From positions 124,001 to 188,000 of the forward strand of contig NZ_JAGIAW010000002.1 of assembly GCF_017744655.1 (NCBI RefSeq): DNA of 64,000 nucleotides, written 5' to 3'. The notes beneath the pieces were generated by a model. It did no database searches. It was not told where the DNA came from and saw nothing but the letters and a program-made list of their open reading frames with translations. Of this stretch, positions 41,783 through 62,598 are shown one piece after another. The position numbers and the translations under genes are program-made. How positions within the stretch are numbered: the stretch's first letter is position 1; each line of letters begins with the position of its first letter. The stretch comes from Devosia sp. Lineage in GTDB: Bacteria; Pseudomonadota; Alphaproteobacteria; Rhizobiales; Devosiaceae.

Positions 41783-41822
41783 TCGGGGTTGGCAGGCAGT
41801 GGTGACAACAACGGAGAATAGC

Positions 41823-42713: not shown

Positions 42714-43528
42714 GCAACCCTCTCGCCCTTATCGGCCGCATTGCCACCTATCTGCTGCTGACCGTCGCGGCCTTTGTGTCGGTCTTTCCCTTCCTCTGGA
42801 TGGTGATCGGCGCGACCAATCTTTCCGCCGATATCATCCGCGGCAAGGTCACCCCCGGCGGCGCGCTGTTGCAGAACATTTCGGTGTTCTTCAGTTCCGT
42901 CGATATGCCGCGGATTCTGTTCAATTCGTTCCTGATCGCCGGCCTCGGCACGGCGCTGACCCTCTTGGTCTCCTCGCTCGCCGGCTATGGCTTCGAAATG
43001 TTCCGCAGCAAGGTCCGCGAAAAGATTTTCGCCGGGCTTCTCCTGATGCTCTCCATCCCTTTCGCCGCCCTCATGATCCCGCTCTTCATCATGATGGCCA
43101 ACTTCAAGATGATAAACACCTACCAGGCGATCCTGCTGCCGACTGTCGCCTCGATCTTCATCATCTTCTATTTCCGCCAGGCAACGAAGGCCTTCCCCCA
43201 TGAGCTGCGCGATGCCGCCCGCATCGATGGCCTGAAGGAGTGGCAGATCTTCCTCTATGTCTACATGCCGGTGATGCGCTCGACCTACGCGGCCGCCACC
43301 ATCATTGTCTTCATGGCCAACTGGAACAATTACCTCTGGCCGCTCATCGTCCTGCAGACCAATGAGATGAAGACGCTCACCCTTGTCGTGGCCGGTCTCA
43401 CCTCCGCCTACACGCCCGATTTCGGCGTCATCATGGTCGGTGCGATCTTCGCCACCCTTCCCACCCTCATCATTTTCTTCCTGCTCCAGCGTCGCTTCGT
43501 CGAAGGCATGCTGGGCGCCGTTAAGTAG
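42710..43528 (+). CDS. Sugar ABC transporter permease (MalG-like)
   Basis: A 272-residue six-helix permease. The first helix is YLLLTVAAFVSVFPFLWMVIGA and the EAA loop is HELRDAARIDGLKEWQIFLYVYMPVMRS. It overlaps the MalF-like gene by four bases (ATGA) and the GH2 gene starts nine bases after it. CUT1 importers of this kind carry di- to oligosaccharides. Confidence 0.92.
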   Translation: MSNPLALIGRIATYLLLTVAAFVSVFPFLWMVIGATNLSADIIRGKVTPGGALLQNISVFFSSVDMPRILFNSFLIAGLGTALTLLVSSLAGYGFEMFRSKVREKIFAGLLLMLSIPFAALMIPLFIMMANFKMINTYQAILLPTVASIFIIFYFRQATKAFPHELRDAARIDGLKEWQIFLYVYMPVMRSTYAAATIIVFMANWNNYLWPLIVLQTNEMKTLTLVVAGLTSAYTPDFGVIMVGAIFATLPTLIIFFLLQRRFVEGMLGAVK

Positions 43529-43537
43529 AACCTAACT

Positions 43538-45739
43538 ATGCGTCCTCTGATCGATTTCAATTCTGGCTGGCTCTTCGAAGGCAAGGACACCGTCCGTCTG
43601 CCGCACAATGCGGTGGACCTGCCGTTCTCCTATTTTGACGAGAAGGCCTATCAGCGCGAATTCACCTACGAAAAGCGCTTCGCCGCTGACGCAGGCTGGC
43701 AGGGCAAGGAAGTCTCCGTCGTCTTCGATGGCGCCATGGCCAATTCCCGCGTCTATCTCAACGGCGAGGAAATTGCTGCGCATAAGGACGGCTACACCCC
43801 CTTCGAAGGCCGCTTCACCGGCCGCGTGAAATCAGGCGAAAATGTCCTGAAAGTCGTCATCGACGGCAGCGAAAACCCCGCCATCCCGCCCTTCGGCGGC
43901 CAGATCGACTATCTCACCTATGCCGGCCTCTACCGCGAAGCCTGGCTGCGCGTGACATCGAGCATCTTCGTCGGCAACGGTAAGATCGAAACTCCCAACG
44001 TGCTGGCCGACAAGAAGTCCGTCCGCGCCCGCATCGATCTCAGTAATCCGCAAAACCTGCCGCTCTCCGGCACCCTGGTAGCGACCCTCAAGGACGCTTC
44101 GGGCAACACCGTTGCCACCACTGACGCCGCCATCTCCGGCGCCTCGGTCGACATCGCCTTCAACGATCTCGCCGGCATCACCCTCTGGGACATCAAGACC
44201 CCGGCGCTCTATACGCTCGAAGTCACCATCGACACAGCGTCCGGCCAGGACACGGCAAGCTTCCGCTTCGGCTTCCGCAGCGCCGAATTCACCGCCGATG
44301 GTTTCAAGCTCAACGGCAAGCTCTTGAAGCTCCGCGGCCTCAATCGCCACCAGTCCTTCCCCTATTCCGGCTACGCCATGGGCAAGTCGGCCCAGGTGCA
44401 GGACGCCGAAATCCTGAAGCACCAGCTGCACCTCAACATGGTGCGCACCTCGCACTATCCGCAGAGCCACTATTTCCTCGATCGCTGCGACGAACTCGGC
44501 CTGCTTGTGTTCGAAGAAATCCCCGGCTGGCAGCATATCGGCCCGCTGGAGTGGCAGGACGAGTCGGTCGAAAACGTCCGCCGCATGATCACCCGCGATT
44601 GGAACCACCCTTCCATCGTCATCTGGGGCGTTCGCATCAACGAAAGCCAGGACAGCCACGACTTCTACGTCCGCACCAACAAGCTGGCCCGCGAACTCGA
44701 CAGCACCCGCCAGACCGGCGGCGTCCGCTACATCACCGATAGCGAACTGCTCGAAGACGTCTACACCATGAACGACTTCATCCTCGGCAACGAGGAATGG
44801 GGCGGCAATCGCCCGCGCACCCCGCTGCGCCCGCAGCAGGAAGTCACGGGTCTCGACCGCATCGTGCCCTATATGATCACCGAATATGGTGGGCACATGT
44901 ACCCCACCAAAAGCTACGATCAGGAGCAGCGCCAGGCCGAACACGTTCGCCGCCACCTCGACGTGATGAACGCCGCCTATGGCGATCCGCAAATTGCCGG
45001 CTGCATCGGCTGGTGCGCTTTCGACTATAATACCCATAAGGACTTTGGCTCGGGCGACCGCCTCTGCCACCACGGCGTCATGGACATGTTCCGCGAGCCC
45101 AAATTCGCCGCCTATGCCTATGCCAGCCAGTGCGAGCCCGAGGAAGAAATCATCCTCAAGCCCGTCACCTTCTGGGCCCGCGGCGAACGCAACATCGGCG
45201 GCGTGCTGCCGTTGATGATCCTCACTAATTGCGACGAGGTCGAGCTGACCTATGGCAACAACGCGCCCAAGCGTTTCCGCCCCGACCGCGAAGCCTTCCC
45301 CCATCTCCCCCACGCGCCCGTCGTCATCAAGCGCGAACACCTGACCGACGAAGAACTCGGCCTCTGGGGCATGTCCTGGGAAGACGCAGTTATCACCGGC
45401 TACATCAATGGCCAGGTGGCCAAGACGGTAAAGTTCATCTCCGACCCGATCGCGACCGAACTTCAGGTCACGCCCGACCATACCGAACTCGGTGCCGAAG
45501 GCGACACGGTGCGGGTCATCGTCCGGGCGCTCGATCAGTCGGGCACGAAGCTCCCCTTCTTCCCCGAACCGGTCTCCATCGAAGTATCGGGTCCCGCCAC
45601 CCGCCTTGGCCCCGGCCTCGTGCCGCTGCGCGCCGGCTCGACCGGCTTCTGGCTGCGCACCACCGGCAAGGGCCCGATCACGGTCACCGTCACCAATGAG
45701 CGGCTCGGCCGCACCGTCACCACTCTCACCGCCGTCTGA
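43538..45739 (+). CDS. GH2 beta-galactosidase-like glycosidase
   Basis: A 733-residue retaining glycosidase, shorter than LacZ (1,024). It has the sugar-binding jelly roll (RLPHNAVDLPFSYFDEKAYQ), Ig-like domain, and barrel with acid/base E369 in GVRINESQDS and nucleophile E449 in MITEYGGHM. GLNRHQSFPYSGYAM and MVRTSHYPQSHYFLDRCDELGLLVFEEIPGW are standard GH2 barrel segments. An Ig-like C-terminal domain (DUF4982-type position) follows. There is no signal peptide, so it acts on imported sugar. Activity could also be glucuronidase or another beta-glycosidase. Confidence 0.9.
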   Translation: MRPLIDFNSGWLFEGKDTVRLPHNAVDLPFSYFDEKAYQREFTYEKRFAADAGWQGKEVSVVFDGAMANSRVYLNGEEIAAHKDGYTPFEGRFTGRVKSGENVLKVVIDGSENPAIPPFGGQIDYLTYAGLYREAWLRVTSSIFVGNGKIETPNVLADKKSVRARIDLSNPQNLPLSGTLVATLKDASGNTVATTDAAISGASVDIAFNDLAGITLWDIKTPALYTLEVTIDTASGQDTASFRFGFRSAEFTADGFKLNGKLLKLRGLNRHQSFPYSGYAMGKSAQVQDAEILKHQLHLNMVRTSHYPQSHYFLDRCDELGLLVFEEIPGWQHIGPLEWQDESVENVRRMITRDWNHPSIVIWGVRINESQDSHDFYVRTNKLARELDSTRQTGGVRYITDSELLEDVYTMNDFILGNEEWGGNRPRTPLRPQQEVTGLDRIVPYMITEYGGHMYPTKSYDQEQRQAEHVRRHLDVMNAAYGDPQIAGCIGWCAFDYNTHKDFGSGDRLCHHGVMDMFREPKFAAYAYASQCEPEEEIILKPVTFWARGERNIGGVLPLMILTNCDEVELTYGNNAPKRFRPDREAFPHLPHAPVVIKREHLTDEELGLWGMSWEDAVITGYINGQVAKTVKFISDPIATELQVTPDHTELGAEGDTVRVIVRALDQSGTKLPFFPEPVSIEVSGPATRLGPGLVPLRAGSTGFWLRTTGKGPITVTVTNERLGRTVTTLTAV

Positions 45740-45748
45740 GGATTACCA

Positions 45749-46807
45749 ATGTCCGGTCTCAAACTCCGAAATGTGAAGAAGTCTTTTGGCGCGGTGGATG
45801 TCATCAAGGGCGTCGATCTCGACATCGAAGACAAGCAGTTCGTGGTTTTCGTCGGTCCCTCGGGCTGCGGCAAGTCTACCCTCCTGCGCATGATCGCCGG
45901 CCTTGAACAGATCTCCTCGGGTGATCTGTTCATCGGCGACAAGCGCATGAACGACATCGATCCCGCCCATCGCGGCATCGCCATGGTGTTTCAGTCCTAC
46001 GCGCTCTATCCGCATATGACGGTGCGCGAAAACATGGGCTTTGCCCTAAAGTTCGCCGGCCGCCCCAAGGACGAAATCGCCAGGCGCGTCGACGAGGCCG
46101 CCCGCATTCTCGAACTCGGCAAGCTTCTCGACCGCAAGCCCGGCCAGCTCTCAGGCGGCCAGCGCCAGCGCGTCGCCATCGGCCGCGCCATCGTGCGCCA
46201 CCCCGATGTGTTCCTCTTCGATGAGCCGCTCTCCAATCTCGATGCGGAACTGCGCGTCCACATGCGCATCGAAATCGCGCGGCTCCACAAGGAACTGAAC
46301 ACCACCATCATCTACGTCACCCACGACCAGGTCGAAGCCATGACCCTGGCCGACAAGATCGTGGTCCTGCGCGATGGCATTATCGAACAGGCCGGCTCGC
46401 CGCTCGAACTCTATGACGATCCCAACAATCTCTTCGTCGCCGGCTTCATCGGTTCGCCCAAAATGAACCTCCTCACCGGCACCGTCGAAGCCGGCGGCAT
46501 CCGCCTTGCCGATTTCCCCAACGACCTGATCCCATCGCCCATTGCCATCCCGGCCGGCACCGCCGTCACCGTCGGCATCCGCCCCGAGCATTTCGACCCC
46601 ACCGGTACGGCTGCCCTCGATACGTCAGTCGAAATCATCGAGCACCTCGGCGGGGAAACCTACGCCTATGCCCGCGGCACCGGCTCCAACCTCCTCACCA
46701 TCGCCACCGACAACAACCGCACATTGAAAACCGGCGACCGCTACCAGGCCAGGTTCAACCCGGCCTCGCTGCTCGTCTTCGGCCGGGACGGCAAGCGCCT
46801 GCGCTAA
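45749..46807 (+). CDS. Sugar ABC transporter ATPase (MsmK/UgpC-like)
   Basis: A 352-residue ATPase: Walker [19 protein letters not shown], signature [16 protein letters not shown], Walker [17 protein letters not shown], and a C-terminal OB/TOBE regulatory domain with GIRPEHFDP. It completes the importer of binding protein, two permeases and ATPase. Its place after the GH2 gene, with a nine-base gap, puts all five genes in one operon. Confidence 0.93.
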
Positions 46808-48507: not shown

Positions 48508-48954
48508 ATGCTCACCAACAAGGGCAAATACGGTTTGAAGGCTCTGGGCCACCTCTCCGGTGTGAAACCGGGCGATCTGGCCATGGTCGGCGACATCGCC
48601 GCGACCAATAACATCCCCAAAAAATTCCTCGACGCCATCCTCTCCGAGCTGCGCAATGCCGGCTTCGTCTACTCCCGCAAGGGCAAGTACGGCGGCTACT
48701 ATCTTGCTCGTCCGCCTGAAGAAATCATGATCGGCCACGTCGTTCGCGTGCTCGACGGGCCGCTGGCGCCGATCCCCTGCGCCAGCAAAACCCGCTACCA
48801 GCCCTGCGCCGATTGCGACATCGAAACCTGCCGCGTCCGCAAGCTGATGTTCGAGGTCCGCAACGCCATCGCCGAAGTCCTCGACAAAACCAGCCTAGCA
48901 GACATGCAGGCCGGCGGCGGCGTCGAGAGCATCAGCAACGACCTCGTCGCCTAG
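48508..48954 (+). CDS. Rrf2-family transcriptional regulator
   Basis: A 148-residue winged-helix regulator: MLTNKGKYGLKALGHLSG, then NNIPKKFLDAILSELRNAGFVYSRKGKYGGYYLARPPEEI. The C-terminal part has four Cys, in PCASKTRYQPCADCDIETCR, placed as in Rrf2 members with Fe-S clusters or redox sensing. ATG 48508 gives the normal Rrf2 start; ATG 48487 would add seven residues. It converges on the flavin-monooxygenase gene with a shared CTAG at the stops. Rrf2 proteins often control sulfur metabolism, so it is a candidate regulator of the organosulfur cluster. Confidence 0.88.
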   Translation: MLTNKGKYGLKALGHLSGVKPGDLAMVGDIAATNNIPKKFLDAILSELRNAGFVYSRKGKYGGYYLARPPEEIMIGHVVRVLDGPLAPIPCASKTRYQPCADCDIETCRVRKLMFEVRNAIAEVLDKTSLADMQAGGGVESISNDLVA

Positions 48955-50258
48955 TCAGGATAGGGCAGGCCATAGCGGTCCCTGATCGTTTTGCCTTCAT
49001 ATTCAGTAGGATAGACACCGCGATCCTGCAGGATCGGCACGACCTGCTCGACGAATTCCTCGATATCATCCGGTGCCCGCGGCGGCTGATAGGTATAGCC
49101 ATCCACCGTCCCATCGGCCCAAAGGTCGATGATCTGGTCAGCCACTTCTTCGGCCGTCCCAAGCACAAGCCGATGGTGTCCCTCTGAGCGCCGAACGACC
49201 TCACGCGCCGTCAGCTTTTCATGCGCCAGCAAGTCGGAAAGCCCAAGTCCCATGCCGACGGCCATGAGCCGGTTCGGATCTGGAATAAAGCGTTGGGGAT
49301 CAAGCACTTCATCGGGGTTGAAGGTGTCTGCATCGAGCCCGTTTTCTTCGATGAAGCGCTTGATGAGCCCATCTTCCGAGCCCGCGCCGCTGAACAGCTC
49401 ATGCTTGCGCAAAGCCTCCTCCCGCGTCTCGCCGACAATGGCGACAAGACCCGGAACGATGCGGATTTCCGAAGTGTCGCGGCCGACTTCCCTCGCGCGA
49501 TCAAAGACTTTCTTGCGGAAAGCCTGCCCCGCTTCGCGCGAGAGAATGTTGCAATAAATGATCTCGCCATGCCGCGCCGCGAGGTCGATCCCGCCTTCCG
49601 AAGCGCCGGCTTGTGCGATCACCGGATGCCCCTGCGGTCCCCGCGGCACATTGAGCGGACCCTTTACCGAAAAATGGTCGCCGACATGGTCGATGGCCTG
49701 GGCCTGGCTGGCATCCCAGAACCGCTCGGGCGGCACGTCGCCCGCGCGCCGCGGGTCCCAGCTCGCCCAGAGTTTTTTTGCCACATCCAGAAATTCGCGC
49801 GCTTTGGCATAGCGCACATCGCGCGACGGCAACGGCTCGCTGCCAAAATTGGCGGCAACCCCGGGATTGAACGAAGAGACCACGTTGATGATCAGCCGGC
49901 CGGCCGAAATGATATCGGTCGACTGCGTCCGTCGCGCCAGATTGTAGGGCGAATTATAGGTCGATGACATGGTCGTAACGAAGCCGATGTCAGGCACCTG
50001 CGCTGCCAATGCCGTCACCAGGATCAGCGGATCGATCGTGTGAAACGGCCGGCTGTTCGGGTCCGTCATCAGCGCCGGATGGTCGGAGAAAAAAACCGAG
50101 TCAAAGAGCCCGCGATGGGCCAGTTGGGTGAGGCGCAGATAGTATGCGGGGTCGGTGATTTCCTCGCGCGTCCCGGTGCGATATTTCCAGCCTGCGCCAA
50201 GATATCCGGTCGTGTTGATGCCGACATTGAGATTGAGCCGACGCTTGTAAGTGGTCAT
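48951..50258 (-). CDS. DszA/NtaA-family flavin-dependent monooxygenase (LLM class)
   Basis: A 435-residue bacterial-luciferase-like protein. It shows the NtaA/SnaA/DszA pattern: YYLRLTQLAHRGLFDSVFFSDHPAL, IDPLILVTALAAQVPDIGFVTTMSSTYNSPYNLARR, then STDIISAGRLIINVVSSFNPGVAANFG and RYAKAREFLDVAKKLWASWDP. These enzymes use FMNH2 to open C-S or C-N bonds; DszA cleaves dibenzothiophene sulfone to a sulfinate. It is the last gene of the leftward operon that also encodes the DszB-like and DszC-like proteins, and starts 22 bases after the small Rossmann gene. The substrate is unknown. Confidence 0.9.
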   Translation of the reverse strand: MTTYKRRLNLNVGINTTGYLGAGWKYRTGTREEITDPAYYLRLTQLAHRGLFDSVFFSDHPALMTDPNSRPFHTIDPLILVTALAAQVPDIGFVTTMSSTYNSPYNLARRTQSTDIISAGRLIINVVSSFNPGVAANFGSEPLPSRDVRYAKAREFLDVAKKLWASWDPRRAGDVPPERFWDASQAQAIDHVGDHFSVKGPLNVPRGPQGHPVIAQAGASEGGIDLAARHGEIIYCNILSREAGQAFRKKVFDRAREVGRDTSEIRIVPGLVAIVGETREEALRKHELFSGAGSEDGLIKRFIEENGLDADTFNPDEVLDPQRFIPDPNRLMAVGMGLGLSDLLAHEKLTAREVVRRSEGHHRLVLGTAEEVADQIIDLWADGTVDGYTYQPPRAPDDIEEFVEQVVPILQDRGVYPTEYEGKTIRDRYGLPYPD

Positions 50259-50280
50259 GTCAATTTCCCAAGCAGTCGGC

Positions 50281-50919
50281 TCAATAGGCCGCCGTGAAGC
50301 GGCGACGCACGTAGCGGCCCTGTTCGAGCTCATCGAGAATGGCCACGGCGAAATCGGCCTCAGAAATGCGGCTATTGCCGTCCGGGTCGCGGAGAAGCTG
50401 GTCTTCGCCGAGCCGGAATTTGCCGGTGCGGTCGCCGGCTTTGATCTCGAGCGGCGGCGACACATAGGTCCAGTCGAGATCATATTCGCCCCGCTTGAGG
50501 GCACGCACGATCTCGCGGTTGCGCAGCGTATGGGCCTTGTGGTCGGCGGGGTAAAAGTCGCTGTCGACGACATCGACGCCGGGGCTCGCTTCGAGGCTGC
50601 CAACGCCACCGACAAGGATCAGCCGCTTCACGCCGCCGAGTTTGACGGCTTCGAAGAGCGATTCATGGGCGCGGCGGATGAGTTCGGCGGCCTCGTCGGC
50701 CGAGTATTTCCGCAGGCCGGGGCTATAGGCCGAAATCACTGCATCATGGCCCGAAATGATCCGGGCAACAGCCTCGGTGTCGGCGAGATCCGCCGTGAGC
50801 GTCGTGAGATTGGGTTCAGCTTCGAGCGGGCTCGAATTGGTGACGGCAGTGACGCGAAAACCGCGCGACAGGGCTTCCTTGCGGATATTGCCGGAGGCGC
50901 CGAAGACGACGATGGACAT
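50281..50919 (-). CDS. NAD(P)-binding Rossmann protein (NmrA/SDR-like), shortened cofactor loop
   Basis: A 212-residue atypical SDR: MSIVVFGASGNIRKEALSRG at the N-terminus, then AVISAYSPG, VKRLILVGGVGSLEASPG and YDLDWTYVSPPLEIKAGDRTG. Relatives usually read GATGNIGSRIVxEAL. Here the third Gly and about four residues after NI are missing, so the GxxGxxG loop is incomplete. It may be a reductase with altered cofactor use or a partly degenerate enzyme. It sits within the leftward operon, 21 bases after the FAD monooxygenase gene. Confidence 0.8.
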   Translation of the reverse strand: MSIVVFGASGNIRKEALSRGFRVTAVTNSSPLEAEPNLTTLTADLADTEAVARIISGHDAVISAYSPGLRKYSADEAAELIRRAHESLFEAVKLGGVKRLILVGGVGSLEASPGVDVVDSDFYPADHKAHTLRNREIVRALKRGEYDLDWTYVSPPLEIKAGDRTGKFRLGEDQLLRDPDGNSRISEADFAVAILDELEQGRYVRRRFTAAY

Positions 50920-50940
50920 GGAATGGGGCTTTCTATGGTT

Positions 50941-52188
50941 CTACTCGGCGGCGACGCCCTTGAGGGCGCGGCCGGCGGCGACATTGTTCAGCATGGCGGT
51001 GAGCGAGGAGCGCACGGCCTCGTAGCCGTGCTCGCGCATGGCGTTTTCGTAGTCGTTGAGCGCGGTGAGTATGGGCTTGCCGCGCTTGCGTGACGCCACC
51101 AGTTGCGGCACGAGCAAGCCCGTATCGTAGAGCGCCGTATTGCCGCCCAGCGCGCGGAAATAGGTCATGGCGTGAATGGAATCGCCCAGAAGCGTCACCG
51201 GCCCCGTTTCCCAGACAGCGCCCGGCTGCGAAGAGCGCACTTTCAGAAGAGCAACGGTCGACGGATCGGTGTGGCGGATCAGCTTGAGAATGCGCTCGTC
51301 CCAATGGCCGATCTTTGCCAGCAACACCTCCAACAGCGCCGCACCGTCGAGCGTTTCGAGTACATCGTCCGGCGCAAGCTCGCCTACCTCATAGGCCGTG
51401 TTCCACCAAACGTAGCTGGTTGCGTTGTTGAAGTGGAAACCGGCAATATCTCTATGTGTCGGATCATCCGCGCCAATGACGCCGTGACGGTCGAAGGCCG
51501 AGGGATCAACGCGATGACTGGTGATCATCAGGTTGTGGCCTTCGCTCGGCCGGATATTGGCATTGGTGTCGAGCAGGACGGATTCGATGTCGTGTGCCGC
51601 CGCTGCCTCGAGCGTCATTTTTCCGGCAAGCCGGCGCACGCCTGTGTCGATACTCTTCAGGTCGGGCAGCAATTGCCGCCGCACGGTCGAGCCCGCGCCG
51701 TCAGCGCCGACGAGAATGTTGGAGCGGACGCGCGACCCGTCGGCAAAGTGCGACAGCACTGTACCTTCCGGCTCGATCTCGTAGTGCAGGAACTGCTTGC
51801 CGGTCTGAACCACATCCTCAAGGCCGGAAAGCAGGATTTGCCGCAGGGTGATGCGGCTCACCGACTTTTCGACATGGGTGTCCTCGACTCCGCGGCCCCA
51901 GGCGCTGCTGTCTACGGGAACGAAATTCTCGTCGAGCGCGGTGTTTTCGGTTGGCGCCCGGCCAAGAGTGGCGAGAAATGCTTCAAAGAGATGCGGCGGC
52001 AGATTGGCCTCAAGCGCATCGAGGCCGCGTTGCCTGAGGCGCAGGCGAAAACCCTGCACATAGTCGGCGCGCTCCGCATCGCGTTCGAACACGGCCGCCT
52101 CGATGCCGTTTTTCTTGAGGCCCTGGGCGAGCGCCAGCCCGCCCGGGCCGCCGCCGATAATGGCGATGTCGACAAAGGGAGTGGTCAT
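50941..52188 (-). CDS. FAD-dependent monooxygenase (group A, PHBH fold)
   Basis: A 415-residue flavoprotein hydroxylase. It has the ADP-binding GGGPGGLALAQGLKKNG (about 12-28), GADGAGSTVRRQLL, and the second FAD motif in VTLLGDSIHAMTYFRALGGNTALYDTGLL. Group A enzymes hydroxylate or epoxidise small substrates using NAD(P)H and O2. ATG 52188 overlaps the stop of the upstream DszB-like gene as ATGA, so it is coupled to that gene. Its role in the operon is not known; it could process the product left after sulfur removal. Confidence 0.88.
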   Translation of the reverse strand: MTTPFVDIAIIGGGPGGLALAQGLKKNGIEAAVFERDAERADYVQGFRLRLRQRGLDALEANLPPHLFEAFLATLGRAPTENTALDENFVPVDSSAWGRGVEDTHVEKSVSRITLRQILLSGLEDVVQTGKQFLHYEIEPEGTVLSHFADGSRVRSNILVGADGAGSTVRRQLLPDLKSIDTGVRRLAGKMTLEAAAAHDIESVLLDTNANIRPSEGHNLMITSHRVDPSAFDRHGVIGADDPTHRDIAGFHFNNATSYVWWNTAYEVGELAPDDVLETLDGAALLEVLLAKIGHWDERILKLIRHTDPSTVALLKVRSSQPGAVWETGPVTLLGDSIHAMTYFRALGGNTALYDTGLLVPQLVASRKRGKPILTALNDYENAMREHGYEAVRSSLTAMLNNVAAGRALKGVAAE

Positions 52189-53219
52189 GCGGCCTCGCTG
52201 CGCCTGATGGCGTCGAGCGCGCGTGGATCGATCCAGGCGGCGACGTCGAAGTCGGCGGGAATGAAACCCCATTCGAGGAGGAAATCCTTGAAATGGGAGA
52301 GGGCGTCAATCTGCTCGTCTTCGAGCGTCAGTTTCAGGTGCCGGTGGACATTCGGGCCATTGGCGGCCCAGATCGCTTCTTCGGCGACACTGATTTCGCG
52401 GGCGATGAAGCGCACCGTGTCTTCGGGATGGGTCTCGGCCCAAGCGCCGACGCGATCGACCGTCGCTACCAGTTCAGCCACGAGATCTGGCCGCTCATCG
52501 GCAAATTTCGCGTCGACCGTCAGCGGGCGTGGCGTGCCATTGTTGATGCGGATGCGGGCATCCGGATGGAAGCCGAATTCGGAAACAATGGTTGCGCCGA
52601 TCTGATTGGCCAGCACCAATCCTTCCGCGCCCTTGACGAAGAAGGCATCGATTTCGTCGCGGGCGAGAGCCAGCAATTCCTCGCCATAGGGGTAGCGGCG
52701 CTTGAGGCCGAGGAAGGCCGCATTGCTGATTTCAAGCAAAGCCGTCTCGCGCACATCGAGATAAACGATCTCGACATCCCCAGCGGTCAGTCCCTCGAGC
52801 GATAGCGCTGAGACGATGCCTTTGAGCGCAGTGGCGCGCTGGAAATCGACGATCCCACCAGCTTGCCGTGGCACGCCAACCCTGCGGCCTTTGAGGTCCT
52901 TGGCCGACTTGATGCCGGTCGTCGGCAGGGAGATAACCGCCTGGAACTCATCGGTCGTCGTGATGCCGACGATGCGGGTTTCCCGTCCGCCCGAACGCGC
53001 CCAGATTGGCGGAATATTGCCGCCCTGGCGGAACGACCAATCGAGCGCATGCGTAAAGTGGCTTTGGCGAACAGCCGGGTCTTTGCTGTCGCGGATCGAG
53101 GCGACCGCAACGCTCTGGGCGCCAAAGGCCTCGTCCACCCAACCAAGTTGGGCGGCGATAGAGAGCGGCGTCGGGGCAGGGCAGCGCGTGTACCAGACGG
53201 ATTTGGGTTCTTGGCTCAT
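52185..53219 (-). CDS. DszB-like sulfinate desulfinase candidate (periplasmic-binding fold, no signal), copy A
   Basis: A 344-residue type II binding-protein-fold protein. Automatic tools would call it an ABC substrate-binding protein, but there is no signal peptide: it starts MSQEPKSVWYTRCPAPTPLS. The desulfinase DszB has catalytic C27 in YSNCPVP, H60 and R70 in a TRFGGEIPP run. Here C13 is in WYTRCPAP, H54 in SHFTH and R64 in FRQGGNIPP. The His to Arg spacing is ten residues in both. I infer a cytoplasmic C-S cleaving enzyme. It follows the DszC-like gene by 12 bases and overlaps the FAD monooxygenase gene. Confidence 0.75.
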   Translation of the reverse strand: MSQEPKSVWYTRCPAPTPLSIAAQLGWVDEAFGAQSVAVASIRDSKDPAVRQSHFTHALDWSFRQGGNIPPIWARSGGRETRIVGITTTDEFQAVISLPTTGIKSAKDLKGRRVGVPRQAGGIVDFQRATALKGIVSALSLEGLTAGDVEIVYLDVRETALLEISNAAFLGLKRRYPYGEELLALARDEIDAFFVKGAEGLVLANQIGATIVSEFGFHPDARIRINNGTPRPLTVDAKFADERPDLVAELVATVDRVGAWAETHPEDTVRFIAREISVAEEAIWAANGPNVHRHLKLTLEDEQIDALSHFKDFLLEWGFIPADFDVAAWIDPRALDAIRRSEAA

Positions 53220-53231
53220 CTCAAAAACTCC

Positions 53232-54452
53232 TCAGGCGCTGGCGACGAGGCGCGGACGCGTCGGCGTGCGCACGGCGACTGGCTCCACTGGCTCGTCCTT
53301 GCGGGCGGCATAGCGGGCGAATGCGCCCTTGGCCAAAATGGTGCGGATCATGTTGTTCTGCGGCGCATGGGCCTTGCCCGAAATCGCGTCGCGATGGTGC
53401 CGCTCGAGCGGATGATCGCGGCTGATGCCGGGATTGCCGCCGAGATCGAGGGCTAGCGTCGTCGCCAGAATGGCGTTCTCGATGACCTCGTGCTTGGTCG
53501 CCGCCGAGTCCGAGCCAAAGGGACGACCGGCATCGAAATCCTCGGCGATCGTGCGCAGCAGGCGCCGATTGGTCGCGAGCCAGGCTTCGATCTGGCCAAC
53601 ACCATCCTGAATGCGCGGTACCGTCGAAAGCGGTGCGCCGAGGCTCGCCGGAGCGCGCGTGCTGGTGAAATCCACCAGCCAGTCGCGCGCCGCGCGGGCG
53701 GCGCCGTCATAGATCGAGGGGACGAGAGTAAAATACCAGGCGCCAAGCCGTTCGTCGCGCTTGAGGCCTTCGGTGGCCGGGGCGATATCCAGCACATCTT
53801 CGATATCGATGGCGACGTCATCGAGGATCAGGTCATGGCTATTGGTGGCTCGCATGCCGGTGGCGTTCCAGGTCTTTTCGACGCGGATGCCATCGGCATC
53901 GGTCGGCACCAGGAAGGAGCCGAGGCGCGGTTCCGGCTCGTCGGTGACGGCGAGCACGGAAACCCATTTGAGGAGCGGAATACCCGTCGCATAGGTCTTG
54001 TGGCCGGTGATGCGCCACTGATTGCCCACCTTGCGTGCCACCGTTTCTGGAAGGCTGCCATGCGAGGGCGAACCGACGCGCGGCTCAACCTGTGCGGCAT
54101 TGAGCAGGGCGACACCTTCGCGATTGGCCTTGGTCACGCGCTCGATCAGATGCTGCGGCCACTTGCCCGAGGCGCGGATGCCGTAATGCTGGCTGTAGTG
54201 CATCGCCAGCACCAGAGCGGTGGATGGCTCGCCCTGCGCCACGGCCGAAACCACGGCCAGCGCTTCGGTGAGCCCGCCGCCGAGACCGCCATGCTCGGTT
54301 GCCGTCACGAGGCCGAGCAGGCCTGCCTCGTAGAGGGCGTCGAAATTGGCGAAGGGGAATTCGCCGGTTTCGTCATAATGCCCAGCGGTGAGGGCGAAGC
54401 GTCGGCCGAGATGCTCGGCCTTGGCGATATAGGGGGTGAAGTCGGTGGTCAT
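53232..54452 (-). CDS. DszC/SfnC-like acyl-CoA-dehydrogenase-fold monooxygenase
   Basis: A 406-residue flavoprotein with an acyl-CoA dehydrogenase fold: N-terminal helical domain, beta domain (WRITGHKTYATGIPLLKWVSVLAVTDE, TWNATGMRATNSHDLILDDVAI) and C-terminal helices. Instead of a dehydrogenase C-terminus it ends SRDHPLERHHRDAISGKAHAPQN, the form seen in DszC, SfnC and related FMN monooxygenases that hydroxylate S or aromatic substrates with an external reductase. It stands between the two DszB-like genes (gaps of 12 and 15 bases). A GAGGA lies upstream of ATG 54452. Confidence 0.82.
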   Translation of the reverse strand: MTTDFTPYIAKAEHLGRRFALTAGHYDETGEFPFANFDALYEAGLLGLVTATEHGGLGGGLTEALAVVSAVAQGEPSTALVLAMHYSQHYGIRASGKWPQHLIERVTKANREGVALLNAAQVEPRVGSPSHGSLPETVARKVGNQWRITGHKTYATGIPLLKWVSVLAVTDEPEPRLGSFLVPTDADGIRVEKTWNATGMRATNSHDLILDDVAIDIEDVLDIAPATEGLKRDERLGAWYFTLVPSIYDGAARAARDWLVDFTSTRAPASLGAPLSTVPRIQDGVGQIEAWLATNRRLLRTIAEDFDAGRPFGSDSAATKHEVIENAILATTLALDLGGNPGISRDHPLERHHRDAISGKAHAPQNNMIRTILAKGAFARYAARKDEPVEPVAVRTPTRPRLVASA

Positions 54453-54467
54453 GTCAGTCCTCGGAAA

Positions 54468-55508
54468 TCAGGCGACGGCGCGAATGTCGATGCCGTCCCA
54501 AGGCCGGCGGTCGACCCAGGCGTTGATGTCAAAATCGCGTTCGAGGAAGCCCCACTCGTAGAGGAAGTCCTTGTAGTGACCGATGGCATCGACCAGTTCG
54601 GGCTCAAGGCCGAGCCCCAGATGCTTGTGCAGGTCCGGACCATTGGCAGCGGCCACGATTTCCTCGGAAGCGCCGACTTCGCGGGCGACGAAGCGGCGGA
54701 CATCATCGGGATGCGCCTCGGCCCAGTCGCTGGCGCGATGCAGCGTTTCGATCAGGCGGGCGACGAGGTCCGGCCGGTCTTCGGCCAGGCGCTCGTCCAC
54801 TGTCAGCACGCGCGGTGAGCCGGAATTGATGCGGATTTTCGGATCGGGATGGAAACCGAACTCCACCACGGTATGGGCCGCGATGAGATTGGTGATGGCA
54901 ATGCCGCCGGTTCCCTTCACGTAGATCGCATCAACCTCGCCGCGCAGTAGAGCAGCGACTTCGGCCCCATAGGCCTGGCGATTCCTGAGGCCATAGAGCT
55001 GCGGACCCTCGCGGCCATCGAGTACGGATTCGGTCAGAGGAATATCGACGATCTCGACTTGCTTATGCGTAAGGCCTGCGAGCGACAGGGCCGAAACGAG
55101 GCCCTTGAGCGCGGTTGCAGCCATGAAATCGACGATCCCTGCCGGACGGCGGGCAATGCCGAAGCGGCGACCGACCAAGTCCTTGGTCGTTTTGATGCCA
55201 CTCGTGGGCAGGGTGATGATGGCCTGGAATTCATCTGTCCAGGTGATGCCGACAAGGCGAGTCGGATTGCCTTCCGAGCGTGCGCGGATCGGCGGAACAT
55301 TGCCGCCGTGGCGGAAGGAATAGCTCAGGTGATGGTCGAAGTGGCTCGACCGGATCGCTCTATCCTTGCTGTCTATGATCGAATTGAGCTTCACGCCTTC
55401 CTTGGCAAACGCCTCGTCCAGAAGACCCAGTTGCACCGCGAGACCAACCGGAGTGGGCACGGGGCAGCGCGTGTACCAGATCTCGGAAATCGTATTCTTG
55501 ATCGTCAT
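54468..55508 (-). CDS. DszB-like sulfinate desulfinase candidate (periplasmic-binding fold, no signal), copy B
   Basis: A 346-residue paralogue of copy A, the first gene of the leftward operon. It starts MTIKNTISEIWYTRCPVPTP without signal peptide. DszB-type residues are C15 (TRCPVP), H56 (SSHFDHH) and R66 (SFRHGGNVPP), again ten residues from His to Arg. The two copies share long blocks (DEFQA, LPT-GIK, KDL-GRR, ATALKG-VSALSL). AGGAGAAGAG precedes ATG 55508; the open frame upstream is not used. A true solute-binding role cannot be excluded, but the lack of export argues against it. Confidence 0.75.
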   Translation of the reverse strand: MTIKNTISEIWYTRCPVPTPVGLAVQLGLLDEAFAKEGVKLNSIIDSKDRAIRSSHFDHHLSYSFRHGGNVPPIRARSEGNPTRLVGITWTDEFQAIITLPTSGIKTTKDLVGRRFGIARRPAGIVDFMAATALKGLVSALSLAGLTHKQVEIVDIPLTESVLDGREGPQLYGLRNRQAYGAEVAALLRGEVDAIYVKGTGGIAITNLIAAHTVVEFGFHPDPKIRINSGSPRVLTVDERLAEDRPDLVARLIETLHRASDWAEAHPDDVRRFVAREVGASEEIVAAANGPDLHKHLGLGLEPELVDAIGHYKDFLYEWGFLERDFDINAWVDRRPWDGIDIRAVA

Positions 55509-55685: not shown

Positions 55686-55717
55686 TTGACAAAGCCTATA
55701 AAACTAGTCAACATAAA
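55686..55717 (+). promoter_or_regulatory. Rightward promoter of the importer operon with AACTAG box
   Basis: TTGACA (55686-55691) is a consensus -35. CATAAA (55712-55717) is a -10-like element. AAAACTAG (55700-55707) lies between them, four bases ahead of the -10. The 299-base gap 55509-55807 is the shared divergent promoter region and contains no gene. Confidence 0.5.
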
Positions 55718-55807: not shown

Positions 55808-56797
55808 ATGTCAGCTCTGCCGCGCATATTGAGGACGCTGCGACGCACGCTCCTTCAGGCCGTGCCCACCGTTCTCGGCATCATCATTCTCAATTTTTTC
55901 CTGCTCCAACTCGCCCCGGGCGATGCTGCTGACGTGATGGCAGGCGAAGCCGGTTCGGCGACGGTCGAAACCATGCAGGCGCTGCGTGAGCGCTTCGGTC
56001 TCGACAATCCGGTGCTGGTGCAGCTCGCCAATTATCTCGGCAATCTCGCTCAGTTCAGCCTCGGCTTCTCGCCACGTTACGGCATGCCGGTGACCGAGCT
56101 GATCGGCCAACGTCTTCCCGGCACGCTGACGCTGATGGCCATGGCTCTGGCTATCGCCATTCTCATCGGCCTGACGCTAGGCTCGCTGATGGCGGCCTTT
56201 TCCGGTCGCCTGCCGGATCGGCTGCTCTCGATCTTCGCGCTGCTCTTTTATTCCGTGCCCGGCTTCTGGATCGGCCTGATGCTGATCGTGCTGTTCTCGG
56301 TGACACTGGGCTGGCTGCCGAGCGGCGGGGCAGGGACCATCGGCTCGTCCTATACCGGCTTTGCCGCCATCATCGACAAGGCGCGCTACATGGTGCTGCC
56401 GGCGACGTCACTCGCGCTATTCTACGTCGCCATTTATGCCCGCCTGACCCGCGCCGCCATGCTCGAAGTCAAGAACCAGGACTTTGTGCGCACTGCCTAT
56501 GCCAAGGGGCTCTCGCCCGCGGTTGTGACCGTCAAGCATGTGCTGCGCAATGCGCTCATCCCCATCACCACCATGGCCGGCATGCATGTCGGCGGCATGC
56601 TCGGCGGCGCCGTGGTGGTGGAGACTGTCTATAGCTGGCCCGGCCTCGGGCGCCTTGCCTTCGAGGCCGTGATGGGCCGCGACTACACAGTTCTTCTGGG
56701 CATCCTGCTACTCTCGTCCATTTTGGTCATTCTCGCCAATGCCATTGTGGACCTTGCGCAGGCCTGGCTCGATCCCCGCATCGGAGAGCAGAAATGA
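55808..56797 (+). CDS. Peptide/glutathione-type ABC permease (DppB/GsiC-like)
   Basis: A 329-residue permease: N-terminal helix TVLGIIILNFFLLQLAPGDA, long first periplasmic loop with QALRERFGLDNPVLVQLANYL, and EAA loop AAMLEVKNQDFVRTAYAKGLSPAVVTVKHVLRNALIP. ATG 55808 has GAGAAAG upstream; the ORF from 55760 is longer but lacks support. It is the first gene of the rightward operon, divergent from the DszB-like operon, with the partner permease overlapping by four bases. Confidence 0.92.
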   Translation: MSALPRILRTLRRTLLQAVPTVLGIIILNFFLLQLAPGDAADVMAGEAGSATVETMQALRERFGLDNPVLVQLANYLGNLAQFSLGFSPRYGMPVTELIGQRLPGTLTLMAMALAIAILIGLTLGSLMAAFSGRLPDRLLSIFALLFYSVPGFWIGLMLIVLFSVTLGWLPSGGAGTIGSSYTGFAAIIDKARYMVLPATSLALFYVAIYARLTRAAMLEVKNQDFVRTAYAKGLSPAVVTVKHVLRNALIPITTMAGMHVGGMLGGAVVVETVYSWPGLGRLAFEAVMGRDYTVLLGILLLSSILVILANAIVDLAQAWLDPRIGEQK

Positions 56798-57786
56798 CGA
56801 CCGAAACCGCCGTCACGCACGCCGCTACGCCCATACAGGCGCGCGCCAGCGCTACCCAGGCCGAAAAGCCGGATACGTCTCAATGGCATAATATCAAGGC
56901 GCCCGATGCCCGCACCACGCGCACGGCATCGGTGTCTGTGCCCGCCGGGCGGCGTGAACTCGCAGCCTTCCTGCGCAATCCCAATGCGCTCTTCGGGTTG
57001 GTTTTCCTGTCCCTGATGGTACTTGTCGCCCTCGTCGCTCCCATCGTTTTTCCCGGCGATCCGCTCGGCATGGTCGGAAAACCCTTCCTCTGGCCGGGCC
57101 AGGACGCCGCCTTCCCGCTCGGAACCGACTCCATGGGTCGTAACGTGCTGGCCGGTCTTTTCCATGGCGCGCGCATCTCGCTCTTTGTCGGCCTGACGGC
57201 AACGGCCCTTGGCCTCGGTGTCGGCATCACCGTCGGCTCGCTGGCCGGTTACTTTGGCGGCTGGGTCGATGATGTGCTCGTCCGCATCATCGAAATCTTC
57301 CAGACCCTTCCTAATTTCGTGCTGCTGGTGGTCCTCGTTGCAATCGCCCAGCCCTCGGCCACTACTGTTTCGGTCGCCATCGCCATCGTCAGTTGGCCCA
57401 TGGTGGCGCGTCTCACCCGCGCCGAGTTCCGCGCCATTCGCGAAAAGGACTATGTGGTCGCCGCCCGCAGTCTCGGCTTCCGCCATCCGCGCATCATTTT
57501 TCGCGAGATTCTGCCCAATGCCCTGCCGCCGCTGATCGTCACCGCCTCGGTCATGGTCGCGACGGCCATCCTGATGGAATCGGCCCTGAGCTTCATGGGC
57601 CTGGGCGATCCCAACGTCGTCAGCTGGGGCTCGATGATCGGCAATGGCCGCGAACTCATCCGCACCGCCTGGTATCTCACCTTCCTGCCGGGCCTTGCCA
57701 TCGTCTTCACCGTGCTCGCCCTCAACCTGATCGGCGACGGTCTCAACGACGCGCTCAACCCGCGCTTTTCGGAGGAACGCTCGTGA
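56794..57786 (+). CDS. Peptide/glutathione-type ABC permease (DppC/GsiD-like)
   Basis: A 330-residue permease with a long N-terminal cytoplasmic tail, first helix LFGLVFLSLMVLVALVAPIVF, then GTDSMGRNVLAGLFHGARISL and EAA loop RLTRAEFRAIREKDYVVAARSLGFRHPRIIFREILPNALPP. It overlaps both neighbours by four bases (ATGA before, GTGA after), so the three transporter genes are tightly coupled. Confidence 0.92.
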   Translation: MTTETAVTHAATPIQARASATQAEKPDTSQWHNIKAPDARTTRTASVSVPAGRRELAAFLRNPNALFGLVFLSLMVLVALVAPIVFPGDPLGMVGKPFLWPGQDAAFPLGTDSMGRNVLAGLFHGARISLFVGLTATALGLGVGITVGSLAGYFGGWVDDVLVRIIEIFQTLPNFVLLVVLVAIAQPSATTVSVAIAIVSWPMVARLTRAEFRAIREKDYVVAARSLGFRHPRIIFREILPNALPPLIVTASVMVATAILMESALSFMGLGDPNVVSWGSMIGNGRELIRTAWYLTFLPGLAIVFTVLALNLIGDGLNDALNPRFSEERS

Positions 57787-59483
57787 GCCCCGCATCCAGC
57801 CGTCTTCTCGAGGTCGAAAACCTCACCGTCCGTTTCGGCTCTGCCGATCCGGTCCGCCACCTGAGCTTTTCTGTCGATCGCGGCGAAACCGTCGCCGTCG
57901 TTGGCGAGTCCGGTTCTGGCAAATCGCTCAGCGCCCTGGCGCTGATGCGTCTCCTGCCGCGCAATGCTGAGGTACCCAATGGCCGGATCACTTTCGAAGG
58001 CACGGACCTCCTAAAGCTTTCCGACCGCGACATTCGCAAGGTGCGTGGGCGGGAGATCGCGATGATCTTCCAGGAGCCAATGACCAGCCTCAATCCGGTC
58101 GCCACTATCGGCAACCAGATCGCCGAGGTGCTGCGCCTCCACGAAAAGCTGAGTAGGAAGGAAGCGCGTGCCCGCGCCATCGAGCTGCTCAACCTCGTGA
58201 AAATCCCCGATGCCGAAAAGCGCGTCGATGATTTCCCGCACCAACTTTCCGGCGGCCAGCGCCAGCGCGTGATGATCGCCATTGCCGTGGCCTGCAAACC
58301 CAAACTTCTTATAGCCGACGAGCCAACGACGGCGCTCGACGCGACCATTCAGGCCCAGATTCTCGAACTGCTCGACGAACTGCGCCGCAAGCTCTCGATG
58401 GGCCTTCTGCTCATCACCCACGATCTTGGCGTCGTCTCGCGCTGGAGCGACCGCGTGGTGGTCATGTATCACGGCGATAAGCTCGAAGAGCTGCCGACGT
58501 CCGAACTCTTCTCGGCAGACCGCCACCCCTATACGCGCGGCCTGGCCCAGGCCTCGATCCGGCTCGAAGACGGTGTGCACCACACCTCGCGCTCGCTTTC
58601 CGAAATCCGCGTGGTAAAGGATCTCGACGGGCAGAACGACTATCAGATCCGCCAGCCGGTCCCGCGCGATCTGCCACCCGTCGCCAATGACGACGAGCCG
58701 ATCCTGCAGGTCGACGGTCTTTCCGTTACCTACCGCACCCGAAATCGCGAAAACCGGGCGCTCGACAAGGCAACACTCACCCTCGCCAAGGGCGAAACTC
58801 TTGGCATTGTGGGTGAATCCGGCAGCGGCAAGTCGACCCTGTCGAAAGCCATCATGCGCCTCGTCAATGCCGAAAGCGGTAGCATCCGCTTTCAGGGCCA
58901 GGACATTACCGGCCTCAGCCCTAATCAGCTTCAGCCGGTTCGCCGCGACCTGCAGATGATTTTCCAGGACCCGTTCGGCTCGCTCAATCCACGAAAATCG
59001 ATCCGCGACATTCTCGAAGCGCCGCTGATCGTTCACGGCGTCCATGACGCCGCAGAACGCCGCCAGCGCATCGCCGAAACCTTTGAGCACGTCCGCCTGC
59101 CGCTTTCAGCCGCCGAACGCTATCCACACGAATTTTCCGGCGGCCAGCGCCAGCGCATCGGCATCGCCCGCGCGCTGATCCTGCGCCCCTCGCTCGTGAT
59201 TTGCGATGAACCGGTTTCGGCGCTCGACGTCTCGATCCAGGCGCAGATTCTCAATCTTCTGGTCGATCTCAAGCGCGACCTTGGCCTCAGCTATCTTTTC
59301 ATCTCGCACGATCTGGCGGTGGTTCAGTACATTTCCGACCGCGTCATCGTGATGAAGGATTCCCGCATTATCGAAGAGAGCGACCACAAGACCATCTGGC
59401 GTCAGCCCAAGACCGACTATACCCGCGCGCTCATCGCCGCGGCGGCCGGCGGCGAAACCCGAAGCAGGGCGCTCGCTTCCTGA
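57783..59483 (+). CDS. Dual-domain peptide/glutathione-type ABC ATPase (GsiA/YejF-like)
   Basis: A 566-residue ATPase with two complete cassettes in one chain. First: [52 protein letters not shown]. Second, from about residue 305: VGESGSGKSTLSKAIM, FSGGQRQRIGIARALI, LVICDEPVSALDVSIQ. This fused form is that of GsiA (glutathione import) and YejF rather than separate DppD and DppF. Start is GTG 57783, overlapping the permease stop as GTGA. The frame stays open upstream inside the permease gene, which is not meaningful. Confidence 0.93.
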   Translation: MSPASSRLLEVENLTVRFGSADPVRHLSFSVDRGETVAVVGESGSGKSLSALALMRLLPRNAEVPNGRITFEGTDLLKLSDRDIRKVRGREIAMIFQEPMTSLNPVATIGNQIAEVLRLHEKLSRKEARARAIELLNLVKIPDAEKRVDDFPHQLSGGQRQRVMIAIAVACKPKLLIADEPTTALDATIQAQILELLDELRRKLSMGLLLITHDLGVVSRWSDRVVVMYHGDKLEELPTSELFSADRHPYTRGLAQASIRLEDGVHHTSRSLSEIRVVKDLDGQNDYQIRQPVPRDLPPVANDDEPILQVDGLSVTYRTRNRENRALDKATLTLAKGETLGIVGESGSGKSTLSKAIMRLVNAESGSIRFQGQDITGLSPNQLQPVRRDLQMIFQDPFGSLNPRKSIRDILEAPLIVHGVHDAAERRQRIAETFEHVRLPLSAAERYPHEFSGGQRQRIGIARALILRPSLVICDEPVSALDVSIQAQILNLLVDLKRDLGLSYLFISHDLAVVQYISDRVIVMKDSRIIEESDHKTIWRQPKTDYTRALIAAAAGGETRSRALAS

Positions 59484-59551: not shown

Positions 59552-60613
59552 ATGGTCGACTATCGCTATCTTGGCCGCAGCGCGCTGAAAGTGTCACCGA
59601 TCACCTTGGGCACCATGATGTTTGGCAATCAGACGCCGGACGATGTCGCCTTCCGCATCATCGACAAGGCGCACGAGCAGGGTATCAATTTCATCGATAC
59701 CGCCGACGTCTATCACGACGGCAAGTCCGAGCAGACTGTCGGCAAGGGTATCAAGAAGCACCGCGAAGATTGGGTGCTCGCCACTAAGTTCGTCAACTCG
59801 CGCGATCCAAAACCCAACAAGGGCGGCTATTCGCGCAAGTGGGTTTACGAGACCGTCGAGAATTCGCTGCGCAATCTCGACACCGACTATATCGACATCC
59901 TCTATTTCCACCGTGCCGTGTTTGACGCCTCGCTCGAAGAGCCCGTTCGCGCCATTGCCGATCTGATCAAGGCCGGCAAGCTGCGCTATTTCGGCGTGTC
60001 CAACTTCCGCGGCTGGCGCATTGCCGAAGTGGCGCATCTCGCAGACCAGCTCGGCATCGATCGTCCGATCGCCAGCCAGCCGCTCTACAACATCGTCAAT
60101 CGCACGGCCGAAGCCGAACAGCTTCCGGCCGCCGTCGCCAACGGCCTTGGCAATGTGTCCTACAGCCCGCTCGCCCGCGGCGTGCTCACCGGCAAGTACA
60201 ATGTCGGCGAAGCGGCCCCGGCCGATAGTCGCGCCGGCCGCGGCGATAAACGCATGCATGACGTGGAATTCCGCGAGGAATCCATCGAGGTCGCGAAGAA
60301 AGTCGCCGCCCATGCTGCCGCCAAGGGCACGACCGGTGCTGATTTTGCGCTCGCCTGGGTGCTGAACAACCAGCTCATCACCTCGGCCATTGCTGGTCCC
60401 CGTACCGAAGAGCAGTGGGATGGCTACATCCGCGCGCTCGACGTTAAGATTGATGCCGACGATGAAGCCCTCGTGGATAGTCTCGTGGCAACTGGCCATC
60501 CGTCTACGCCTGGTTTCACCGATCCAGGCCACCCGGTCGAAGGCCGCGTGCCCCGGTCGGCCGCCGGCTCCGCACAGATCATTCCGCTGAGCCGCACCCA
60601 GCGCGTTGCCTGA
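59552..60613 (+). CDS. Aldo/keto reductase
   Basis: A 353-residue NADPH-dependent reductase of the AKR barrel fold: MVDYRYLGRSALKVSPITLG, FIDTADVYHDGKSEQTVGKGIKKHREDWVLATKF (catalytic Asp, Tyr and Lys), IDILYFHRAVFDASLEEPVRA (His) and SPLARGVLTGKYN with C-terminal cofactor segment ITSAIAGPRTEEQWD. GGGAG lies upstream of ATG 59552. It lies between the importer and the binding protein, so an aldehyde or ketone in the pathway is the likely substrate, but this is open. Confidence 0.9.
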   Translation: MVDYRYLGRSALKVSPITLGTMMFGNQTPDDVAFRIIDKAHEQGINFIDTADVYHDGKSEQTVGKGIKKHREDWVLATKFVNSRDPKPNKGGYSRKWVYETVENSLRNLDTDYIDILYFHRAVFDASLEEPVRAIADLIKAGKLRYFGVSNFRGWRIAEVAHLADQLGIDRPIASQPLYNIVNRTAEAEQLPAAVANGLGNVSYSPLARGVLTGKYNVGEAAPADSRAGRGDKRMHDVEFREESIEVAKKVAAHAAAKGTTGADFALAWVLNNQLITSAIAGPRTEEQWDGYIRALDVKIDADDEALVDSLVATGHPSTPGFTDPGHPVEGRVPRSAAGSAQIIPLSRTQRVA

Positions 60614-62561: not shown

Positions 62562-62598
62562 GCCTGCCGGATAAGTGTCCGGCAGGCTTATTGTTTTT
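62562..62598 (+). terminator. Intrinsic terminator after the binding-protein gene
   Basis: A perfect 10-bp stem, GCCTGCCGGA (62562-62571) and TCCGGCAGGC (62578-62587), with loop TAAGTG, then TTATTGTTTTT. It lies eight bases after the stop and 16 bases before the next start codon. Confidence 0.88.

Follow-up and report, generated by a model that had tools for sequence, protein, structure and literature searches.

The 64 kb window analysed here (the whole stretch of DNA, from a Devosia genome of 4.4 Mb) contains a leftward operon of six open reading frames (ORFs; 55508-48951, all on the minus strand), two of which encode putative desulfinases of the wider DszB family. We consider it probable that this operon and a divergently transcribed importer form an organosulfur-scavenging locus, in which a sulfur compound would be imported, flavin monooxygenases would open its C-S bond to a sulfinate, and two DszB-type desulfinases would release sulfite. 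The gene set is real, conserved and mislabelled, as annotated public records name members of the desulfinase family ABC transporter substrate-binding protein. Judged by its DszA and DszC counterparts it is not a 4S dsz operon. The two predicted desulfinases share the sequence characters of the wider DszB family, and the modelled fold of the first agrees with this assignment.

The operon begins with DszB1 (54468-55508, 346 residues), followed by a flavin enzyme of the acyl-CoA dehydrogenase (ACAD) fold, here DszC' (53232-54452), and by DszB2 (52185-53219, 344 residues), which is 57% identical to DszB1 and has the same site. Downstream lie a FAD-dependent monooxygenase of class A type (50941-52188), an NAD(P)H-binding protein with a NAD_binding_10/NmrA-like domain (50281-50919), possibly a flavin reductase, and an FMN-dependent luciferase-like monooxygenase (LLM) of the NtaA/DmoA family (48951-50258). 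Spacings from 55508 leftward are 15, 12, -4 (the ATGA overlap of 52185-53219 and 50941-52188), 21 and 22 bases. These ORF calls agree with the initial annotation, made from the sequence alone, in operon, coordinates and gaps (22 bases or less, one ATGA overlap); the FAD monooxygenase, the NAD(P)H-binding gene and an Rrf2-family regulator at 48508-48954 had been omitted from it.

A specific indication of function comes from the predicted active site. Cys15, His56, Arg66 and Gly68-Gly69 of DszB1 correspond to Cys27, His60, Arg70 and Gly72-Gly73 of DszB (we take His60 and Arg70 to have roles in the site), and all of these residues, the two glycines included, are kept in both DszB1 and DszB2. Cys/His/Arg is retained in 111 of 112 rows of a first alignment set, which counts genes of the window more than once. 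Among family ORFs above 150 bits (those of the window included, with duplicates removed by comparing the last 250 residues alone), 121 of the 123 distinct ones retain it, as does DszB at 121 bits; nine other, lower-scoring and distant ORFs, annotated SsuA among them, all lack it (two of the nine are probably one gene). Both exceptions are paralogues. One, the third DszB copy of a Devosia metagenome-assembled genome (L012:1852-2952, minus strand), has Ser/Tyr/Arg at the site and is possibly non-catalytic or repurposed. The other, a DszB-like protein on a Sphingobium plasmid (L123:13390-14565, annotated as a monooxygenase), has Cys/Asp/Arg, with Asp for His; a second, intact copy lies near it, in an island of sulfur genes that includes ssu and an arylsulfatase. 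Ratios of nonsynonymous to synonymous substitution (dN/dS) against a Devosia orthologue are about 0.04 for DszB1 and about 0.06 for DszB2 (0.06 for the ACAD-fold enzyme), and both desulfinase copies are therefore under purifying selection. At the protein level, DszB1 is 95% identical over its full length to records of Devosia riboflavina and two other Devosia.

Both proteins match Pfam NMT1 and, under threshold, NCBIfam SsuA_fam. Together with the public label, these matches favour the view that the pair are binding proteins of the SsuA/TauA/NMT1 type and the operon a transporter-plus-monooxygenase sulfonate system. We regard this as very improbable and reject it, since DszB wins over SsuA by sequence and by fold, the triad is present and there is no space for a signal peptide. 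The best PDB sequence match is DszB (2de2) for both proteins (E 4.9e-14 and 5.3e-12), with SsuA reaching at best E 0.04. In the reverse direction, a search with DszB against 72,556 plasmid records returned one true dszB at 65% identity and then mainly this rhizobial family at 25-30%, and no SsuA-annotated feature appeared among the 60 of 81 matching records that were listed. The Cys motif occupies residues 13-18 in DszB1 and 11-16 in DszB2, as read off the N-termini themselves. Moreover, the six-gene operon encodes no cognate permease or ATPase, and the neighbouring importer has a family-5 binding protein of its own. The near-invariance of the triad in the family and its absence from SsuA-annotated rows point the same way.

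Fold and phylogeny are consistent with this. Fold comparison of the pair was based on an AlphaFold model of DszB1 only (mean predicted local distance difference test score, pLDDT, 89.5), for which Foldseek gave DszB as the best match (E 1e-19). Structural alignment with VIA gave Z 31.4 for DszB (root mean square deviation, rmsd, 3.4 A, 318 residues aligned) and Z 25.1 for the best SsuA (rmsd 3.2 A, 297 aligned). In the tree, four binding proteins are separated from DszB and the family with support 100/98, two DszB rows pair at 100/100, and the remaining 28 rows unite at 93/81. The tree was inferred without Gordonia terrae BdsA, and its deep placements are uncertain because of long branches. 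DszB1 and DszB2 stand apart from the clade of actinobacterial DszB, and are thus not DszB in the strict sense (EC 3.13.1.3). The claim that the operon holds two DszB-like proteins is nevertheless borne out by the sequence match and the site, and their proposed grouping with DszB rather than with exported binding proteins is supported by the tree and, for DszB1, by the fold.

The initial annotation had recognised relatives of all three Dsz classes in the operon. This holds at the superfamily level; more specifically only the desulfinase assignment stands, as DszC' and the LLM are nearer to other families. DszC', previously called DszC-like, shares the ACAD fold with DszC. Its closest PDB sequences are 5z8t (211 bits, titled flavin-containing monooxygenase) and 5gj7 (210 bits), against 47 bits for TdsC and 35 for DszC. 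By fold it is likewise closest to 5z8t (Z 47.5, rmsd 2.4, 380 aligned) and 5gj7 (Z 46.2, rmsd 2.3, 370 aligned), ahead of acyl-CoA dehydrogenases (Z 42.5 at most) and the DszC-type TdsC (Z 40.4). With the DszC model NF043015 (cut-off 850 bits), on which true DszC scores 865.4 bits, DszC' reaches 40.8 bits. In an alignment of family rows with DszC, His-Ala-Pro (motif KAHAPQ) takes the position of His-Asp-Pro in DszC, and 78 of 79 rows of the family have the His. The catalytic Glu of acyl-CoA dehydrogenases, by comparison, presumably lies in a C-terminal motif. We take DszC' to be likely a monooxygenase rather than a dehydrogenase. The LLM passes the NtaA/DmoA model TIGR03860 (377.1 bits, cut-off 279.7); its nearest PDB relative is EDTA monooxygenase (300 bits) and not DszA (5tlc, 200 bits, 33% identity). 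A second NtaA/DmoA-family monooxygenase above the family cut-off is encoded elsewhere in the Devosia genome (G000:C5:75471-76733).

The neighbourhoods of related genes show which partners are regular. We surveyed genes within about 10 kb in 80 related loci (kept of 99 found; near-full flanks in 67), with identity cut-offs of our own choice (41-50%). On the importer side, a family-5 solute-binding protein is present in 79 loci, the two permeases in 76 each, an ATPase in 74 and an aldo/keto reductase in 73. Among the oxygenases, the ACAD-fold enzyme occurs in 68 loci (in 62 its ORF directly follows that of a desulfinase), an SfnB-like enzyme in 57, an SfnG-like LLM in 48, the NtaA-type LLM in 29 and the FAD monooxygenase in 18. 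Less frequent are a second desulfinase (17), the Rrf2 regulator (15) and the NAD(P)H-binding protein (14). A mostly full gene set is found in Devosia, Sinorhizobium/Ensifer, Chelatococcus and several Neorhizobium loci; most Rhizobium loci have a shorter set with the SfnG-like LLM, and Agrobacterium-type loci have neither LLM at the 45% cut-off.

This pattern is also what might be expected if the desulfinases are real and the 4S order is absent, with the ACAD-fold enzyme and the FAD monooxygenase altering the carbon skeleton and the sulfinate arising elsewhere or being imported. We consider this rather unlikely. It is indeed the importer (at least 74 loci) and the ACAD-fold enzyme, itself nearer to 5z8t than to DszC, that accompany the desulfinase most regularly; neither LLM type is as regular, and in 15 loci the ACAD-fold enzyme stands without either of them at the 45% cut-off. 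On the other hand, 64 loci have at least one of the two LLM types within their flanks, and in 14 of the other 16 there is a more distant LLM (24-37% identity) that may be part of the locus or a mere neighbour.

Under the scavenging interpretation that we prefer, the Opp-type importer would bring in a sulfur compound, which the ACAD-fold enzyme and the NtaA/DmoA-type LLM would oxidise and open at the C-S bond to a sulfinate, perhaps assisted by the SfnB-like enzyme and the FAD monooxygenase. The two cytosolic DszB-type desulfinases would then release sulfite for assimilation or oxidation. Among these steps it is desulfination that receives specific support, from the site and the modelled fold; a 4S-type order would be plausible. 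We infer that the substrates of the desulfinases are sulfinates, that the oxygenases work earlier in the pathway and that the locus is controlled by sulfur limitation. Passages on DszB describe its chemistry as electrophilic aromatic substitution, with proton attack from Cys27 (PMC6100217), and an aromatic or alkenyl sulfinate is therefore the likeliest substrate by analogy; DszB is also described as slow (in passages of PMC12168087 and PMC4839641). The simplest guesses for the presence of two desulfinases are two isomeric ring-opening products or two substrates.

The divergent genes, all on the plus strand, include a complete importer as initially annotated: Dpp/Opp-type permease 1 (55808-56797, start chosen among candidates), permease 2 with an OppC_N domain (56794-57786), a fused double ATPase with the oligopeptide-transporter C-terminal domain (57783-59483, predicted start) and, beyond an aldo/keto reductase (59552-60613, predicted start), the family-5 solute-binding protein (60932-62554). 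The ATPases are encoded by one fused gene in the Devosia window and by two separate ORFs in 66 of the 80 related loci. Next comes an SfnB/DszC/MsuC-like flavin monooxygenase (62615-63847). The earlier description of this gene as a second DszC-like one is upheld, its product being closer to DszC (28% identity over 361 residues) than DszC' is (23% over 276). Scored as the ORF 62591-63847, it reaches 122.3 bits on the DszC model and 278.1 bits on the SfnB model TIGR04022 (cut-off 430.9). Directly after it and just past the window (G000:C7:187848-191761), an NmrA-like gene and a MetNIQ-type transporter are found, which possibly extend the sulfur locus. A further ABC importer on the plus strand of the window (41799-46807), with a 733-residue glycoside hydrolase family 2 protein, is apparently unrelated to it.

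The frequency of SfnB-like and SfnG-like enzymes in the surveyed loci, and the NmrA-like and MetNIQ-type genes beyond the SfnB-like gene, raise the question of an alkyl sulfone, sulfinate or sulfonate system (dimethyl sulfone, methanesulfinate), in which the SfnB-like enzyme and the LLM do the work and the desulfinases form a side branch. Sinorhizobium sp. KT55 would fit such a system, as a passage in PMC6630823 reports that it uses dimethyl sulfone as well as benzothiophene. The SfnB and SfnG scores are under the curated cut-offs, however, and electrophilic aromatic substitution as described for DszB (passages of PMC6100217) is ill-suited to saturated alkyl sulfinates. We therefore hold this explanation to be improbable.

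Between the divergent operons, a conserved stretch of about 33 bp contains a 26-bp pseudo-palindrome, TTGAC-N16-GTCAA (55686-55711, minus strand). At up to three mismatches it has exactly one site in the 4.4 Mb Devosia genome, and among 19 further genomes it has one site each in 12 of 13 with the locus and none in six Devosia without it. The reversed pattern, used as a control, has no site in any of the genomes. Sites from the window and nine of the 13 locus-carrying genomes were aligned for the pattern, so that ten helped to define it; seven of the nine entered through their named loci, and two match L013 and L014 in contig coordinates. Of the four genomes outside the alignment (G006, G018 and those of L026 and L083), three have the site and one, Sphingobium, does not; the promoter of its importer carries a weaker copy. 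Best-scoring sites lie upstream of the importer also in Rhizobium, Mesorhizobium, Agrobacterium and Kaistia loci; this does not hold for the scanned loci of Acetobacter, Variovorax and Comamonas. We read the element as a putative locus-specific operator or promoter pair. The local candidate regulator is the Rrf2-family protein (48508-48954, plus strand, assigned by domain), whose gene converges with the end of the LLM gene and whose score on the best NCBIfam equivalog, CymR NF047409, is 85.2 bits (cut-off 195).

A link to sulfur nutrition comes from Sinorhizobium meliloti 1021, whose orthologous locus was assigned by position and divergence to SMa2085-SMa2077 and SMa2087-SMa2101. By the annotation of a sister strain, five genes were counted against five for the importer half, and seven against eight for the other half. 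According to passages of PMC5940162, both divergent promoters are up specifically in the deletion pSymB 635,940-869,642; the words sulfur, sulfate and sulfonate are absent from its main text. When we examined the sequence of the deleted interval, we found in a row the genes of a sulfate-type transporter: binding protein, two permeases and ATPase. The binding protein is 83% identical to one near the pSymA locus that is annotated as sulfate-binding in the sister strain. Lost sulfate uptake thus offers an explanation of the derepression. Going by name, the set probably corresponds to SMb21130-21133; passages of PMC6421345 report induction of the binding protein in that group under sulfate limitation. 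That the cause was a lost Rrf2 repressor copy on pSymB is not supported, because the best tblastn match of the window Rrf2 protein in the interval has E 0.26; other regulators within the interval may be responsible. In the pSymA sulfate-type copy, the genes for the binding protein and the ATPase are adjacent (L010:856-3117), with no permease genes between them, and this copy may be incomplete; the pSymB set (L094, pSymB 769047-772934) has both permeases. A gene of the Mo-sulfite-oxidase family, SMa2103 by position, adjoins the S. meliloti LLM gene. SMa2103 has been named among taurine-induced sulfite-oxidizing enzymes, as data not shown (PMC3511301). Such a gene was near only two of the loci examined, both of S. 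meliloti.

Several observations speak against the scavenging interpretation. The identity of DszB1 and DszB2 to DszB is low (about 25-27%), and DszB falls outside the family in the tree. A search with DszB2 extends to annotated SsuA (23-24% identity, E about 1e-6, far under its own family), and the two are therefore distant relatives. The operon oxygenases are not closest to DszC or DszA, and 16 of the 80 surveyed loci have neither LLM type at the 45% cut-off; the surveyed loci are mostly from Rhizobiaceae and not independent. A global sulfur regulon acting through the 26-bp element is not supported, as the element occurs at no other gene of the genome. In S. meliloti, the 234 kb deletion loses many other genes, and one of eleven deletions would hold the transporter by chance alone. 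Finally, the searches made turned up no Devosia data on activity, expression or growth.

The locus is accessory and, in rhizobia, often plasmid-borne. The desulfinase gene is present in 5 of 37 Devosia genomes and in none of 24 from the other families of the order. Across the class it was found in at least 4 of 385 genomes, its own included, a lower bound given an even draw of genomes and a limit of five scored candidates in each. A scan of viral contigs gave two stretches that fit a search pattern, neither of them a relative. Two alphaproteobacterial genomes (L106-L107 and L108-L109) each have three DszB-like genes within about 20 kb, with several LLM monooxygenases. Some related loci lie among other sulfur genes: ssu genes and arylsulfatase in Sphingobium, cysteine dioxygenase and cystathionine beta-lyase in Variovorax.

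Descriptions of DszB usually come from petroleum desulfurizers. We tentatively propose, as a possibility that we would not yet call probable, that a large, unrecognised clade of DszB-type desulfinases exists in plant-associated alpha- and some betaproteobacteria, and that it represents a second, independent 4S-like branch for an aromatic sulfur compound of soil or plants, with a conserved importer, monooxygenases and a private operator. One version is possibly the genetic basis of benzothiophene desulfurization as reported in 2001 for Sinorhizobium sp. KT55 (known to us from passages on the strain, in which no genes for it are named); the locus is a candidate answer, and that KT55 carries it is conjecture. 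If the family members are indeed desulfinases, desulfination of aromatic or alkenyl sulfinates would be a natural route of sulfur nutrition in root-nodule and soil bacteria, located on symbiotic plasmids such as pSymA of S. meliloti and hidden by a wrong automatic label. SMa2077-SMa2101 of S. meliloti would offer a genetically tractable host system, and biodesulfurization would gain new candidates. The motifs xCPxP, His and ArgxGGN would then give a simple rule for relabelling the family.

Two further cases were considered as parallels and set aside. Sulfolane degradation in Rhodoferax involves a genome with a dszA homologue and without dszB, according to passages of PMC6395730. Although the locus is present in a genome of Chelatococcus (L024), the peptides quoted in passages of a proteomic study of dibenzothiophene in Chelatococcus (PMC4839641) match classical Dsz of other genera and are therefore not evidence for this clade.

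Compared with known systems, the family shares with SsuA/TauA the periplasmic-binding-protein type 2 fold, a distant homology and its current annotation. It differs in that SsuA/TauA are exported, have the lower fold score and, in the SsuA rows examined, lack the catalytic triad. The product of 62615-63847 belongs to the neighbourhood of SfnB, MsuC and TdsC (278 bits for SfnB, 28% identity to DszC), although it remains under the SfnB equivalog cut-off. DszB itself (PDB 2de2, 2de3) resembles the window family in fold over most of the length, in the Cys/His/Arg/Gly-Gly site, in the lack of an export signal and in the flavin monooxygenases of its operon. The window family is distinguished by two paralogues in one operon, by the Opp-type importer, by an identity of about 25-27% and by the motif TRCPxP...GGN in place of SNCPVP...GGE. 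Like the 4S dszABC operon of Rhodococcus, Gordonia and Mycobacterium, the window operon combines a desulfinase, an LLM of the NtaA/DmoA subfamily and an ACAD-fold flavin enzyme. Its order is B-C'-B-FADmo-NAD(P)-LLM instead of A-B-C (as seen in L114), it has extra genes and the importer, and its ACAD-fold enzyme and LLM are closer to other families. A similar combination is known from bdsABC of Gordonia terrae C-6, an actinobacterial host unlike ours. As far as passages of PMC3868597 report, it comprises a desulfinase, an FMNH2 monooxygenase and an alkanesulfonate-type monooxygenase of low homology to Dsz, which convert benzothiophene to o-hydroxystyrene in E. coli extracts. ABC transporter genes neighbour bdsABC by number, and peptide-type ABC transporters are among the induced genes of the strain.

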